Below are positions 5,988-63,044 of a DNA stretch of 64,000 nt, piece after piece. Where the stretch lies: positions 1 to 64,000 of the forward strand of contig CAIUGM010000012.1 of assembly GCA_903898675.1 (NCBI GenBank). The letters are read 5' to 3'. Positions within the stretch are counted from its first letter, which is position 1. Every line of letters begins with the position of its first letter. The position numbers were made by a program, and so were the translations under genes. Under the pieces are notes generated by a model that made no database searches, had not been told where the DNA came from, and saw nothing but the letters and a program-made list of their open reading frames with translations. This stretch comes from an uncultured Verrucomicrobiota bacterium (GTDB lineage: Bacteria > Verrucomicrobiota > Verrucomicrobiia > Opitutales > Opitutaceae).

Positions 5988-6042
5988 TCATGGTTCATTT
6001 CATCGGCCCGATGAACAGTGAACGATGAGAAATGAACCATGA
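5988..6042. repeat. palindromic element between convergent genes
   Basis: The left arm TCATGGTTCATTTCATCG (5988-6005) pairs with CGATGAGAAATGAACCATGA (6023-6042), apart from a 2-base bulge. It is clearly more AT-rich than its surroundings and sits between the ends of the MYG1 and FKBP genes. It could act as a two-way transcript end or be a dispersed repeat. Confidence 0.6.
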
Positions 6043-6057
6043 CCCGGGTTCACCGGC

Positions 6058-8291: not shown

Positions 8292-8415
8292 CCACAGAGG
8301 CACGGAGGCACAGAGTTCCGGAGTGCCGAACCAAGCAGTATTCATCGCTGTATGCCGAGTGTTCACTTCCCTCTCGAATTCCGGTGTCTTCACCCTGTGT
8401 CTCTGTGCCTCTGTG
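8292..8415. repeat. CACAGAGG-type inverted-repeat element, no internal gene
   Basis: Starts one base after the TGA of trhO. The left arm (8292-8315) has three 8-nt units CACAGAGG, CACGGAGG, CACAGAG; the right arm (8392-8415) ends in CTCTGTGCCTCTGTGG. About 21 of 24 positions match. The 76-bp interior has no ORF. Confidence 0.7.
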
Positions 8416-8501
8416 GCTAATCCGTTTTCTTAAATCCGCCTCTTTCGCTCTCGCCCACGATATAACTGTCAACCGGCACCATTCGCGGCTATGTTTCCAG
8501 C

Positions 8502-29326: not shown

Positions 29327-29338
29327 GGGTTTATTTCA

Positions 29339-29447
29339 CCACGAAGAACACGAAGGGCACGAAGATTCTCGGAAATAAAAAAGCCCCGGTTTGCACCGAG
29401 GCTGAGTGTACGGGAGCTGAGCTTCGTGTTCTTCGTGACCTTCGTGG
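29339..29447. repeat. CACGAAG-type inverted-repeat element, no internal gene
   Basis: The left arm (29339-29364) has three 9-nt units CACGAAGAA, CACGAAGGG, CACGAAG; the right arm (29422-29447) carries three units of the reverse complement and ends CTTCGTGG. The same arms flank the GxxExxY gene at 42875, but here the 57-bp interior holds only a terminator hairpin. It separates rpsP from trmD. Confidence 0.75.
29377..29403 (-). terminator. hairpin with T-run between rpsP and trmD
   Basis: AGCCCCGG (29382-29389) and CCGAGGCT (29396-29403) form a near-perfect stem with one mismatch. On the minus strand six T residues follow, then AT. It should stop or attenuate transcription after rpsP, so trmD-rplS may need read-through or its own promoter. 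Confidence 0.7.
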
Positions 29448-29457
29448 TTAAAACCAC

Positions 29458-41681: not shown

Positions 41682-42848
41682 ATGCCCCCGCTGCTGCGCC
41701 AGTTCCGCGACTTTTTCGTCTCCCTCCGGCTGACCGTCGGGCTGCTCGGACTGTCGCTGATCCTGGTCTTCTGGGCCACGGTCGCCCAGGTGAACCTTGG
41801 CATCTGGGGCGTGCAGGAGAAATTCTTCCACTCCTTCTTCGTGCTCGAGAAAATCCCGGGCACCGCGATCCCCGTGCCGGTGTTTCCGGGCGGCTACTTC
41901 CTCGGCGGCCTCCTGCTCATCAACCTCGTGGCCGCGCACGTCTACCGTTTCAAGCTCGAGGGGCGCAAGGCGGGTATTCTGCTGACCCACACCGGCCTCA
42001 TCCTCCTGCTGGTCGGCGAACTTCTCTCCGGCCTGCTGCAACAGGAAAGCCAGATGCGGCTTGATGCCGGTGAAAGCAAAAACTACTCGGAAAGCTACCG
42101 GCAGGACGAGCTCGTCGTCCTGGACACCACCGACCCGAAGTTCAACGAGGTCGTCGCCATTCCCGAGGCCGTCGTGGCCGAGGGCGGCCTGATCCAGCAC
42201 CCCAAGCTGCCGTTCCAGCTCCGCCTCCGCGATTATTACCCGAACGCGATCATCCAGCTGCGCGAGCAGCTGCCCAATGCCGCGCCGGCGATGGCGAACA
42301 ACGGGATCGGCCCGCGCGTCGCCCTCATCCCGATCCCCCTCACCTACAAGCAGGACGAGCGCAACGCCCCGGCCGCGAACGTCGAGCTCGTCGGCCCGGA
42401 GGGTTCGCTCGGGACTTGGCTGGTCTCACCGCTGCTCGGGATGCCGCAGGGCTTCACCTACCAGGGCCGGACCTGGGAAATCGCCCTGCGCTTCAAGCGC
42501 TATTACCACCCGTTCTCGATGACGCTGATCAATTTCACGCACGAGAAATACGCCGGCACGGACATCCCGAAAAATTTCGCCAGCCGCATCCGCCTGCAGA
42601 CGCCCGACGCGCACGAGGACCGCGAGGTGCTCATCTACATGAACAATCCGCTGCGCTACGCCGGGCTCACCTTCTACCAGGCCAGCTTCGACCCCAGCAA
42701 CGACCACAACACCATCCTGCAGGTCGTGCGCAACCCGAGCTGGCTGCTGCCTTACGTGTCGTGCCTGATGATGGGCCTTGGCCTGGTGATTCAATTCGGC
42801 CTCCACCTCACCGGCTTCATCCGCAAGCGGGCAGCCAAGGCGGTTTAA
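41682..42848 (+). CDS. ccsB: ResB/CcsB-family cytochrome c biogenesis protein
   Basis: A 388-residue membrane protein. Helices at about 15-36 (LRLTVGLLGLSLILVFWATV), 68-87, 98-116 (GILLTHTGLILLLVGELLSG) and near the C-terminus (VSCLMMGLGLVIQFGLHLTG) frame a large periplasmic domain with YMNNPLRYAGLTFYQASFDP, the ResB signature. With CcsA it delivers haem to apocytochrome c (system II). Its TAA stop (42846-42848) is formed by the left end of the inverted-repeat element. Confidence 0.88.
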   Translation: MPPLLRQFRDFFVSLRLTVGLLGLSLILVFWATVAQVNLGIWGVQEKFFHSFFVLEKIPGTAIPVPVFPGGYFLGGLLLINLVAAHVYRFKLEGRKAGILLTHTGLILLLVGELLSGLLQQESQMRLDAGESKNYSESYRQDELVVLDTTDPKFNEVVAIPEAVVAEGGLIQHPKLPFQLRLRDYYPNAIIQLREQLPNAAPAMANNGIGPRVALIPIPLTYKQDERNAPAANVELVGPEGSLGTWLVSPLLGMPQGFTYQGRTWEIALRFKRYYHPFSMTLINFTHEKYAGTDIPKNFASRIRLQTPDAHEDREVLIYMNNPLRYAGLTFYQASFDPSNDHNTILQVVRNPSWLLPYVSCLMMGLGLVIQFGLHLTGFIRKRAAKAV

Positions 42849-43277
42849 CCACGAAGTTCACGAAGGACACGAAGATGGAATTTGATCCCCTCTCGAAACA
42901 AATCCTGGGCTGTGCGATTGAGGTGCACCGCACCCTTGGTCCTGGCCTGCTGGAAAGCGTCTATGAACAGGCCTTGGCGTATGAGCTCATTTCAAATGGG
43001 CTGAAGATTCAGGCTCAATTGCCGGTGCCGGTAACCTACAAGGCCGTCAAGCTAGACTGTGGCTTCAGGCTCGATCTGGTCGTCGAAGACCGGGTGGTGG
43101 TCGAAATCAAGAGCGTGGAATGTCTTTTGCCAATCCATGACGCCCAATTGCTGACTTATCTAAAGCTCACCGGCCATACCTTGGGGCTCCTCATTAACTT
43201 TAATGTCCCGCTGCTTAAGAACGGCCTCAAGAGATTCGTTCTCTAACCTTCGTGCTCTTCGTGTCCTTCGTGGTTAA
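42844..43277. mobile_element. CACGAAG inverted-repeat element carrying a GxxExxY gene
   Basis: The left arm (TTTAACC then 42849-42874: CACGAAGTT, CACGAAGGA, CACGAAG) and right arm (43248-43273 then TTAAA) are reverse complements with few mismatches. The left arm ends at the base before the gene's ATG; the right arm starts two bases after its stop. The ccsB stop codon and the bases before the ccsA ATG are part of the ends. It splits the ccsB-ccsA operon and looks like a recently inserted cassette. Confidence 0.75.
42875..43246 (+). CDS. GxxExxY protein (PDDEXK_3 family)
   Basis: A 123-residue protein. The family motif is G24-LL-E27-SV-Y30. D67 (FRLDLVV) and E77-x-K79 (VEIKSV) are in the right order and spacing for a PD-(D/E)xK nuclease core. 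Function is unknown; the family is multi-copy in Verrucomicrobiota and related phyla. The ATG directly abuts the left inverted-repeat arm. No ribosome site other than the CGAAG of the repeat is seen, so the repeat may itself supply translation signals. Confidence 0.9.
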   Translation: MEFDPLSKQILGCAIEVHRTLGPGLLESVYEQALAYELISNGLKIQAQLPVPVTYKAVKLDCGFRLDLVVEDRVVVEIKSVECLLPIHDAQLLTYLKLTGHTLGLLINFNVPLLKNGLKRFVL

Positions 43278-60335: not shown

Positions 60336-61280
60336 GTGCCCTGGCATCGCAAACATCTCCTGACCATCGAGGATCTCTCCCGCGCCGAGATCGAGCAGCT
60401 GCTCGCCACGGCCGGCGCGTTCCGCCGCATCCTCGACCGCAAGGTCAAGAAGGTCCCCGCCCTGCGCGGCAAGACGATCGTCAATTTCTTCCTCGAGCCC
60501 AGCACCCGCACCCGCATCTCGTTCGAGATGGCGGCGAAACTGCTGAGCGCGGACGTCATCTCCTTCGACGCCGCGACCTCGAGCACGAGCAAGGGCGAGA
60601 CCCTCCGGGACACGGCCCAGAACATCCAGGCGCTCAACGCCGACATGATCGTGCTGCGCCACTCGGCCAGCGGCTCGCCGCTCTACCTCAGCCGGGTGCT
60701 GGACATCCCCGTCATCAACGCCGGGGACGGCGCCCACGAACATCCGACGCAGGCCCTGCTCGATGTTTTCACCATGCGTGAAAAACTCGGCGACCTGCAG
60801 GGCCGCAAGGTCGTCATCCTTGGTGACATTCTCTTCAGCCGCGTCGCCCGCTCCAACATTCACGCCCTGACCAAGCTCGGCGCCGATGTCACAATCGTCG
60901 GTCCCTCCACCCTCGTGCCGCACTGGTTCGAGGCGATGGGCGTCAAGGTCTCGCACAACCTCCGCTCCGCCCTCGCCGACGCCGACGTGGTCATGCTGCT
61001 GCGCATCCAGCACGAGCGGCAGGCCTCCAGCCACTTTCCGTCCCTGGGCGAGTACACCAGCATGTTCGGCCTCAACAAGACCCGCGCCGGCTGGCTCAAG
61101 CCTGACGCCATCATCATGCATCCGGGCCCGATCAACCGGGGCGTCGAGATCGACAGCGACCTCGCCGATTCCCCGCGCAGCGTGATCCTCCAGCAGGTCA
61201 CCAACGGCATCGCCGTCCGCATGGCCGCGCTCTACCTCTGCGCCGGCGGCCAGCCGGAAGCCGTCCTGACGCCGGCGTGA
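60336..61280 (+). CDS. pyrB: aspartate carbamoyltransferase catalytic subunit
   Basis: A 314-residue enzyme starting at GTG ([20 protein letters not shown]). The carbamoyl-phosphate site [19 protein letters not shown] is intact, followed by [38 protein letters not shown], the Asp-domain [12 protein letters not shown] and the [12 protein letters not shown] signature. It makes carbamoyl-aspartate, the second step of pyrimidine synthesis. It follows pyrR by 26 bp. Its end is 14 bp before the GxxExxY element. Confidence 0.96.
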
Positions 61281-61294
61281 TTAGTTTTCAAACG

Positions 61295-61743
61295 GGCCAC
61301 GAAAAACACCAAAAACACGATAAAACCCACCGATATCAACCAGCTCTGCGACATCGTCAGGGAAACCAGCTTCGCCATTCACTGCTATCACCGAAACGGA
61401 CACATGGAGAAAATCTATGAGAACGCCCTGGTCCATCGACTGCGCAAACAGGGTTTGGACGTTAAACAACAACACCCACTTTCCGTTTGCGATGAAGACG
61501 GCACACCGCTCGGTGATTTCTTTGCAGACCTTTTTCTGGAAAATCGACTCATTGTCGAGTTGAAGGCCGCCCGCAATGTTGCCGAGGAACACATCGCCCA
61601 ATTGCTCGGTTACCTGCGGTCCAGCCGGATCGAAACCGGACTGCTCATCAACTTCGGATCCCCTCGCCTCCACGTTAAGAAATACCTCATGTCCGATGTC
61701 CGGTTTTAATCGTTTTTTTGTGTTTCTCGTGTTTTTCGTGGCC
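61295..61743. mobile_element. CACGAAAAA inverted-repeat element carrying a GxxExxY gene
   Basis: The left arm (61295-61319: GG, CCACGAAAAA, CACCAAAAA, CACG) and right arm (61719-61743, ending TTTTTCGTGGCC) match at 22 of 25 positions. It lies between pyrB and pyrC, 14 bp after the pyrB stop and 11 bp before the pyrC ATG. Its layout (arms hugging a GxxExxY gene) copies the 42844-43277 element although the repeat unit differs. Confidence 0.72.
61320..61709 (+). CDS. GxxExxY protein with lost ATG (ATA start position)
   Basis: Codons from 61320 read IKPTDINQLCDIVRETSFAI, the normal N-terminus of a GxxExxY subgroup, but the first codon is ATA. A single G-to-A change from ATG explains this. Motif residues are G27, E30 and Y33; D70 and E80-L-K82 fit the PD-(D/E)xK core. 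The first real ATG (61404) lies within the motif and would drop its Gly and 28 residues. So the gene is either silenced or begins at a rare codon. The rest (129 codons) is intact. Confidence 0.75.
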   Translation: MKPTDINQLCDIVRETSFAIHCYHRNGHMEKIYENALVHRLRKQGLDVKQQHPLSVCDEDGTPLGDFFADLFLENRLIVELKAARNVAEEHIAQLLGYLRSSRIETGLLINFGSPRLHVKKYLMSDVRF

Positions 61744-61754
61744 AACTCCTAAAA

Positions 61755-63044
61755 ATGCCTGCCTTCCTCATCATCAAAAACGGCCGCGTCATCGATCCCG
61801 CCTCGAAGCGGGACAAGGTCGGTGACGTCTTCATTGCCGACGGCAAGTTTGTGGCGGGCCTTACGGCGGCGCAGAAGAAGAAAGCCCGGACCATCGACGC
61901 CCGCGGCCTCGTGGTCTGCCCCGGGCTGGTTGATATCCATGTGCATTTCCGCGAGCCCGGCCAGACGCACAAGGAGACCATCCTCACCGGTTCCCACGCC
62001 GCCGCCGCCGGCGGGTTCACCACCGTGGTCTGCATGCCCAACACTTCCCCGGTGGCCGACAACGCGGGCACGATCGAGCTGATCAACAACGCCGCCCGCA
62101 AGGCCGCCGTCCACGTCTACCCGACCGGCTGCATCACCGTCGGCATGAAGGGCCAGCAGCTGGCGCCGCACGGCTCGCTCAAGAAGGCCGGGGTCGTCGC
62201 CATCACGGACGACGGCCTTTGCGTCGAGAGCAACGAGCTCATGCGCCGCGCGGTCGAGTACGCCAAGATGTTCGATCTCACGGTCCTCGACCACTGCCAG
62301 GACGAATCCCTGACCAAGGGCGCCGTGATGAACGAGGGCACCGTCTCGACGCGGCTCGGCCTGCGCGGCTGGCCGCACGCCGCCGAGGACATCATCGTCG
62401 CGCGCAACATCATCCTCTCCGCCTACTCCGGCGCCCACATCCACATGCAGCACATCAGCTCCGCCATGTCGGTCGAGCTGGTGCGCCGGGCGAAAAAGGA
62501 CGGCATCAACGTCACCGCCGAGGCCACCCCGCACCACATCGCGCTGACCGAGGAGGCGCTCGGCACCTACGACACCAATTTCAAGATGAACCCGCCGTTG
62601 CGGACCGAAAAGGACCGCCGCGCGATCATCGCCGGCCTGAAGGACGGGGCCCTGGACTGCATCGGCACCGATCACGCGCCGCACACGCCCGACGAGAAGG
62701 ACCGTGAGTTCGACTATGCACCCAACGGCATCACCGGGCTCGAGACCGCCCTGCCCGTTTGCCTCGACGTGCTCGTCCGGCAGAACAAATTCAAGCTGCC
62801 GTACGTCATCGACCTGCTGACGCGCCGCGCCGCCGCCATCCTGAAGCTGCCCGCCGGCACGCTCGCCCCGGGCGCGGCCGCCGACGTCTGTATCTTCGAC
62901 CCGGCGGCGACCTGGACCTATGACGCGAAGCAGGGCTTCAGCAAGTCGCTGAACTCCCCGTGGTCGGGTCAGAAGATGACCGGCCGCGTGCAGACCACCA
63001 TCGTGGACGGACGCATCGTCTTTGCGGCGGGCAAGATCGTGTGA
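61755..63044 (+). CDS. pyrC: dihydroorotase
   Basis: A 429-residue amidohydrolase of the long PyrC type. Metal ligands are in VDIHVHFREPGQTHKETILT (HxH), DHCQDESL, HIHMQHISSAMSVEL and the Asp in CIGTDHAPHTPDEKD. The PPLRTEKDRRAIIAGLKDG block is also conserved. It closes carbamoyl-aspartate to dihydroorotate. It follows the GxxExxY element, so transcription from pyrR must cross the two repeat arms to reach it. Confidence 0.95.
   Translation: MPAFLIIKNGRVIDPASKRDKVGDVFIADGKFVAGLTAAQKKKARTIDARGLVVCPGLVDIHVHFREPGQTHKETILTGSHAAAAGGFTTVVCMPNTSPVADNAGTIELINNAARKAAVHVYPTGCITVGMKGQQLAPHGSLKKAGVVAITDDGLCVESNELMRRAVEYAKMFDLTVLDHCQDESLTKGAVMNEGTVSTRLGLRGWPHAAEDIIVARNIILSAYSGAHIHMQHISSAMSVELVRRAKKDGINVTAEATPHHIALTEEALGTYDTNFKMNPPLRTEKDRRAIIAGLKDGALDCIGTDHAPHTPDEKDREFDYAPNGITGLETALPVCLDVLVRQNKFKLPYVIDLLTRRAAAILKLPAGTLAPGAAADVCIFDPAATWTYDAKQGFSKSLNSPWSGQKMTGRVQTTIVDGRIVFAAGKIV

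Follow-up and report, generated by a model that had tools for sequence, protein, structure and literature searches.

Between putative pyrB and pyrC genes of an uncultured Verrucomicrobiota bacterium lies a cassette of about 450 bp, a small GxxExxY gene enclosed by two inverted arms, which we interpret, with a probability of roughly 60%, as a selfish miniature element whose nuclease would recognise the element's own arms. This interpretation is built on sequence comparison, and the binding, cutting and mobilisation that it entails are proposed from the patterns described below. The cassette was found in a stretch of 64,000 nucleotides, referred to here as the window, which also holds another GxxExxY gene with arms and a gene-less hairpin. 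The features discussed are the following.

60336 to 61280, plus strand: upstream gene, named pyrB in a preliminary description of this DNA, with stop codon TGA at 61278-61280
61295 to 61326, no strand assigned: left arm of three CACGAAAAA-like units, its last bases overlapping the ATA codon
61320 to 61709, plus strand: GxxExxY open frame of 129 codons without a canonical start, first codon ATA, stop codon at 61707-61709
61404 to 61406, plus strand: first in-frame ATG, residue 29, inside the GxxExxY motif
61712 to 61743, no strand assigned: right arm, inverted
61755 to 63044, plus strand: frame of the downstream gene, named pyrC in the same description
42844 to 42874, no strand assigned: left arm of the 42.8-kb copy, made of CACGAAGNN units
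42875 to 43246, plus strand: the other GxxExxY gene, ATG start, TIGR04256
43248 to 43278, no strand assigned: right arm of the 42.8-kb copy
29334 to 29452, no strand assigned: gene-less hairpin with CACGAAGNN arms

The two arms of the pyrB-pyrC cassette are 32 nt each, complementary at 28 of 32 positions (88%) and separated by 385 nt. Their score of 42 exceeds the best score, 38, obtained from 4000 random placements of the same geometry within the window. The preliminary description had given 22 matches in 25, which a count by eye bears out for the first 25 nt, and we likewise confirmed that the arms enclose a TIGR04256 gene whose expected ATG reads ATA at 61320. The cassette has terminal inverted repeats enclosing a single small ORF and lies between two protein-coding frames, not in 23S rRNA. 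Third-position GC is 63-65% in both GxxExxY genes of the window and 92% in the genes that flank the 61.3-kb copy. Inverted-arm features also occur in the window at 8292-8417 and 5988-6043, with CACAGAG-like words and GTTCATT-like words.

The protein of frame 61320-61709 matches the GxxExxY family, TIGR04256, at E=3.9e-31 and 107.8 bits, and that of 42875-43246 matches at E=2.7e-45 and 153.5 bits, against a curated cut-off of 35 bits. Among 46 sequences, E30, D70 and K82 are invariant and E80 nearly so, and all four residues are kept in the 61.3-kb protein. A structure model of high confidence (pLDDT 95.0) has nuclease folds as its top matches, the closest being SSO0001 (Z 9.4), which we take to be a Cas4 protein, with the BpuSI nuclease at Z 8.5. 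Fold and residues together mark the protein as a predicted nuclease of the PD-(D/E)XK type, the Z values speaking to fold and not to function. A sequence search of solved structures returned 2f8l only (E=0.63), and a search of a defence-gene library gave weak partial matches at most (best E 5.9e-4).

Between the ATA codon and the TGA at 61278, which closes the upstream gene in the same frame, there is no in-frame ATG, GTG or TTG. The first ATG does lie within the motif, at 61404, as had been pointed out, and a protein started there would, according to the model, keep E30, D70, E80 and K82 without helix 1. In 97 of the 98 loci where the motif was found (the motif pattern failed in three loci), an ATG, GTG or TTG precedes it by 12-60 codons; the sole exception is the 61.3-kb copy. 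An opening M-K-x-x-D-I-N, which had been put forward as typical of the family, does not fit: the orthologues here begin MRKNPIN, MIKNPIN or MNEP, and the wider family varies.

The start defect had been ascribed to silencing by a point mutation or to a rare ATA start. Placing the ATA opposite the ATG of the orthologue in genome G002 scores 58.5, poorer than the 74 of the best alignment, in which 13 nt are removed from the G of ATG onward and one base is added in the arm. The alignment suggests that the ATG was probably lost through a deletion of about 13 nt rather than through a change of ATG to ATA; the exact event is uncertain because the best alignment to the G008 orthologue spreads the gap differently. 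Silencing itself is still favoured, in that the gene is probably silenced, or else weakly started at an isoleucine codon, with its frame and catalytic-type residues intact. We consider it somewhat unlikely that the gene is intact and translated from the ATA or another isoleucine codon, or that the missing ATG is an assembly error. The open frame and retained residues do point that way, as do a pairwise dN of only 0.10 to G002 (dS is too high to compute), the absence of any stop codon in the frame when 3.5% of random substitutions would create one, and the fact that ATA is a listed start codon of translation table 11. What weighs on the other side is the canonical start at all the other motif loci and, for an assembly error, that one of about 13 nt would be needed on the better G002 alignment. 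Since the frame is intact and dN is 0.10, either the loss of the start is recent or an isoleucine codon serves as the start.

Comparison of copies at different sites indicates that the arms and the gene form one unit. A relative, G043, carries two copies with 2.3 kb between them and 95.5% identity across 465 nt; their flanking genes differ, and the similarity begins and ends within 10 nt of the arm edges. The G012 copy L141 matches three copies located elsewhere (L003, L029 and L032) at 69-71% over 450-453 nt, the match stopping no more than 5 nt from the arm edges. For L151 compared with L002 and L039, at different sites, that distance is at most 8 nt. The preliminary description had argued that arm and gene move together; these boundaries, and words that track the gene tree (below), support the joint unit, its movement being the part that we infer. 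By position the unit sits close to gene ends. The elements L037 and L147 (G043:C92) both begin before the upstream frame has ended, within its 3' end, and the stop codon of that frame falls in the arm. No target-site duplication was seen by eye at the G043 copies or at the 42.8-kb junction, the species compared being diverged.

We then surveyed the two junctions of the window among species of the genus. Of 21 species searched at pyrB-pyrC, 20 were readable (G001 is at a contig end), and a GxxExxY element is present in seven of the 20, its gene belonging to one clade throughout; the copy therefore has a long history at this junction in the genus. The window's two copies had been described as independent insertions of the same gene and repeat plan, and the two proteins are indeed only 31% identical, at different junctions and between arms of different words; what does not hold is a fresh insertion at pyrB-pyrC. 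Inverted arms scoring at least 30 occur at this junction in 14 of the 20 species. Five more have weaker arms (G015 24, G003 24, G019 27, G016 21, G005 19), near chance as scores though their words can be made out by eye; in G006 the gap measures 49 nt and no arms are present. Such persistence is what one would expect if the pyrB-pyrC hairpin were a host regulatory element kept for control of the operon, with the gene incidental. We regard this as very improbable: one and the same junction has different words and cargo from species to species, and the plan recurs elsewhere in the genome and at the 42.8-kb junction, which in 4 of 19 readable species is empty, the two genes overlapping by 4 nt. 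In the other species the 42.8-kb junction is occupied by GxxExxY elements, among which three kinds of word occur, by hairpins that score weakly and show TAGCGAG words by eye, or by inserts of other types. Among the matches listed, PF13366 falls at these junction coordinates in G000, G004, G009, G012, G018 and G020, while G015 and G019 are alike by eye only. TAGCGAG-like words also surround an IVP gene of G014 (L084) and, by eye, are present in gene-less inserts at the 42.8-kb junction in G010, G014 and G017 (L213, L220, L221).

The arm plan is general. In the source genome itself (3.52 Mb, 40 contigs) all six PF13366 matches have paired inverted arms scoring at least 42, the units of one (L006) being degenerate. 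Together with relatives, 82 of 101 GxxExxY loci have arms scoring at least 30, mostly of three 9-11-nt units, and 19 have none at that score; in 72 loci of this set the true partner arm ranked second or better. The 101 loci comprise 6 from the source genome, 29 from a search of relatives (among the strongest matches listed), 60 taken by region and 6 from a pyrC search, so that weak family members are under-sampled in the relatives, where loci were taken from the matches listed, strongest first. Element length is 428-476 nt in 64 of 80 measured elements, and the longest is 634 nt. We also examined named loci from Bacteroidota, Proteobacteria, Planctomycetes, Chloroflexi, Cyanobacteria, Acidobacteria, Methanosarcinales and others. 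Arms were present in 51 of the 77 that could be tested (those of 80 with at least 60 flanking bases) and absent at score 30 in 26; these loci were picked by a GLLE-type pattern and are not a sample of all GxxExxY genes. Mismatched partners drawn from different named loci reach a score of 30 in 563 of 5852 pairs. The preliminary description had raised the prospect that the arms are unrelated across many genomes, and this is not what these loci show. At one locus, G039:C73:118564-120203 (L190), arm motifs in the same orientation recur every ~112 nt on both sides of the GxxExxY gene, in the manner of a tandem array.

Within the arms it is the words that are maintained. Partner arms are identical at 1346 of 1415 word positions (95%) versus 221 of 357 spacer positions (62%), a comparison that somewhat favours word agreement as the words were located by a left-arm pattern. 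The difference implies that conservation acts on the word and not on the stem. Words also follow the protein. On the gene tree, 79 rows with 22 words require 30 changes, where shuffled labels require a mean of 63.7 (minimum 58); with one row per site, 36 rows require 24 changes versus 27.9 in shuffles (minimum 25), none of 300 shuffles being as low. This test covers only loci with a word label, and the 36-row set predates the merging of one-sided junctions. The seventh letter of the word is G at all 17 junctions with a GPGLLE-type protein and at 1 of 16 others (p=1.5e-8), in a test that used 75 of the 101 loci (21 were dropped for scores below 30 and 5 had no word), with junctions seen on one side only merged. 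Before this merging the counts were 16/16 and 2/18, and across all 75 rows they are 23/23 and 6/52. Named loci with arms have G as seventh letter in 48 of 51, with no word in three; being all of GLLE type, they agree with the rule and offer no contrast of their own, the contrast coming from the relatives. The simplest reading of this match between word and protein type is that the encoded protein would recognise the word sequence-specifically.

The word conservation also bears on an RNA-level explanation, in which the cassette resembles a 23S rRNA intervening sequence (IVS), the arms pairing in the operon transcript, RNase III excising the unit and the gene being a leftover. The likeness is close. 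The Coxiella 23S rRNA IVS, as described in the available text of PMC4990558, is 428 nt long; its terminal stem measures 28 bp, and three tandem heptamers immediately precede the start of a single small, decaying ORF, of the S23p/IVP family (PF05635); the cassette shares the length of about 430 nt, the terminal inverted repeats, the tandem words and the decay near the start. Genes of PF05635 (23S_rRNA_IVP) in the source genome (L007-L010) and relatives (L072-L100) often lie between inverted tandem-word arms as well, 19 of 33 scoring at least 30, with words that are mostly different, G-rich and ~7 nt long. In addition, the GxxExxY gene is co-oriented with its neighbours in 37 of 44 cases where both neighbours point the same way, by a crude call that takes the longest frame on each side as the neighbour. 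A stem in sense RNA nonetheless fits poorly, with spacers inside it only 62% matched and A.C mismatches (84) outnumbering the G.U mismatches (37). Of 80 elements, 56 have the more stable duplex in antisense and 15 in sense (p=0.011 with one element per site), a result whose strength is overstated by the relatedness of the rows and whose direction is still against a sense-RNA stem. No Rfam family scored above threshold in 61000-62000 (one fell below: ar35, 20 bits versus 45). We judge the RNA-level explanation improbable, and a sense-strand RNA stem as the sole selected feature was rejected on the mismatch counts and the poorly paired spacers. The cassette further differs from the 23S rRNA IVS in that its ORF is a PD-(D/E)XK GxxExxY protein and not an S23p/IVP four-helix protein, and in that it lies between protein genes and gene-less hairpins carry words of the same kinds.

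We counted 137 arm motifs in the source genome versus 0 for a reversed control, and fetched 30 of these sites for inspection. An inverted partner was found within ~220 nt at 20 of the 30, some of which are the two arms of one hairpin; two of the 30 belong to the 42.8-kb gene copy as its arms, and at the remaining sites the same method gave no inverted partner. Hairpins are 69-145 nt long, except that one outer hairpin of 255 nt contains another, and their middles differ by eye despite similar arms, save for two nested ones that share sequence. At C14:131539-131936 and C14:133297-133537 (L063-L067) a hairpin is nested in a hairpin of another word class, twice within 2 kb. By their sequence, the gene-less hairpins carry words of the same kinds as the gene-bearing copies.

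Across 57 genomes, arms are found in 40 of the 42 that have GxxExxY and in 3 of the 15 that lack it (p=5e-8). The association is as strong for PF05635 (39/40 with, 4/17 without) and weaker for the transposase family Y1_Tnp (37/41 with, 6/16 without; p=1e-4). G007 has 31 arm matches and no PF13366 match in a genome that is 86% complete, and G038 and G047 have GxxExxY and no match to the arm pattern used. Individual words follow the same trend, in that CACGGAA and CACTAAT arm motifs are commoner in family genomes with a fetched gene of that word (p=4e-4 and 5e-5). Motifs also occur with no same-word gene among the loci fetched, which are only part of each genome's genes: CACTAAT in G031 (18) and G016 (8), and CACGGAA in G035 (24), G005 (21) and G014 (12).

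The Y1 association is relevant since the arms could be hairpins of the REP kind that a Y1 (RAYT) transposase, encoded elsewhere in the genome, mobilises, with the GxxExxY gene a passenger. REPINs share the plan of inverted doublets served by a gene acting in trans, and in the available text of PMC3116915 they are dispersed doublets to which one gene or a few are linked, every group of repeats lying beside a gene of its own; in population behaviour this is the system closest to the dispersed inverted doublets seen here. The source genome has one Y1_Tnp frame (two partial matches). We find this explanation quite improbable. Around that frame a crude 10-mer seed check revealed no tandem-word arms, and a Y1 mover leaves the match between word and GxxExxY type unexplained. 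Five genomes (G002, G006, G008, G019 and G055) have 5-21 arm matches and no Y1_Tnp match, on which ground RAYT as the only mover was rejected. Compared with REPIN-RAYT, moreover, the cassette encodes a TIGR04256 protein and not a Y1/HUH enzyme, its arm is three tandem words and not a palindrome, and its gene lies inside the arms. The cassette thus fails to carry the defining protein of either the 23S rRNA IVS or REPIN-RAYT. MITEs with an autonomous partner are also alike in having short copies that lack a gene and resemble the gene-bearing copies at their ends. They differ in that the middles here look unrelated, by eye, between most copies with near-identical arms, and the cassette has neither a visible target duplication nor a known transposase.

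A selfish element that recognises its own arms would work as follows. A unit consists of one predicted PD-(D/E)XK nuclease gene flanked by two inverted arms, in each of which three tandem 6-7-nt words are spaced about one DNA turn apart. The nuclease may bind the word in its own arms and cut there or at targets, after which repair would copy the unit into gene junctions; gene-less hairpins would be moved in trans. More tentatively, and at a little less than even odds, the cassettes may represent a transposase-free class of bacterial and archaeal elements in which the nuclease, a single small PD-(D/E)XK enzyme, has evolved together with its arms through a protein-to-word recognition code and spreads both cassette and gene-less hairpins into gene junctions, with a parallel IVP class that has the same plan and other words.

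GxxExxY proteins occur in many phyla, and the available text of papers that name the family assigns them no function. In the open-licence PMC literature, as far as its accessible text extends, we found no link of GxxExxY, TIGR04256 or PF13366 to arms or mobility; prior work elsewhere is possible. If the link to the hairpins is true, it would give the GxxExxY family a role and would explain a class of repeats that is common in these genomes. The cassettes would then also provide a naturally occurring panel of nucleases matched individually to their target words. The unexplained intervening sequences of rRNA would be placed in a wider family of elements, and their mobility would become testable.
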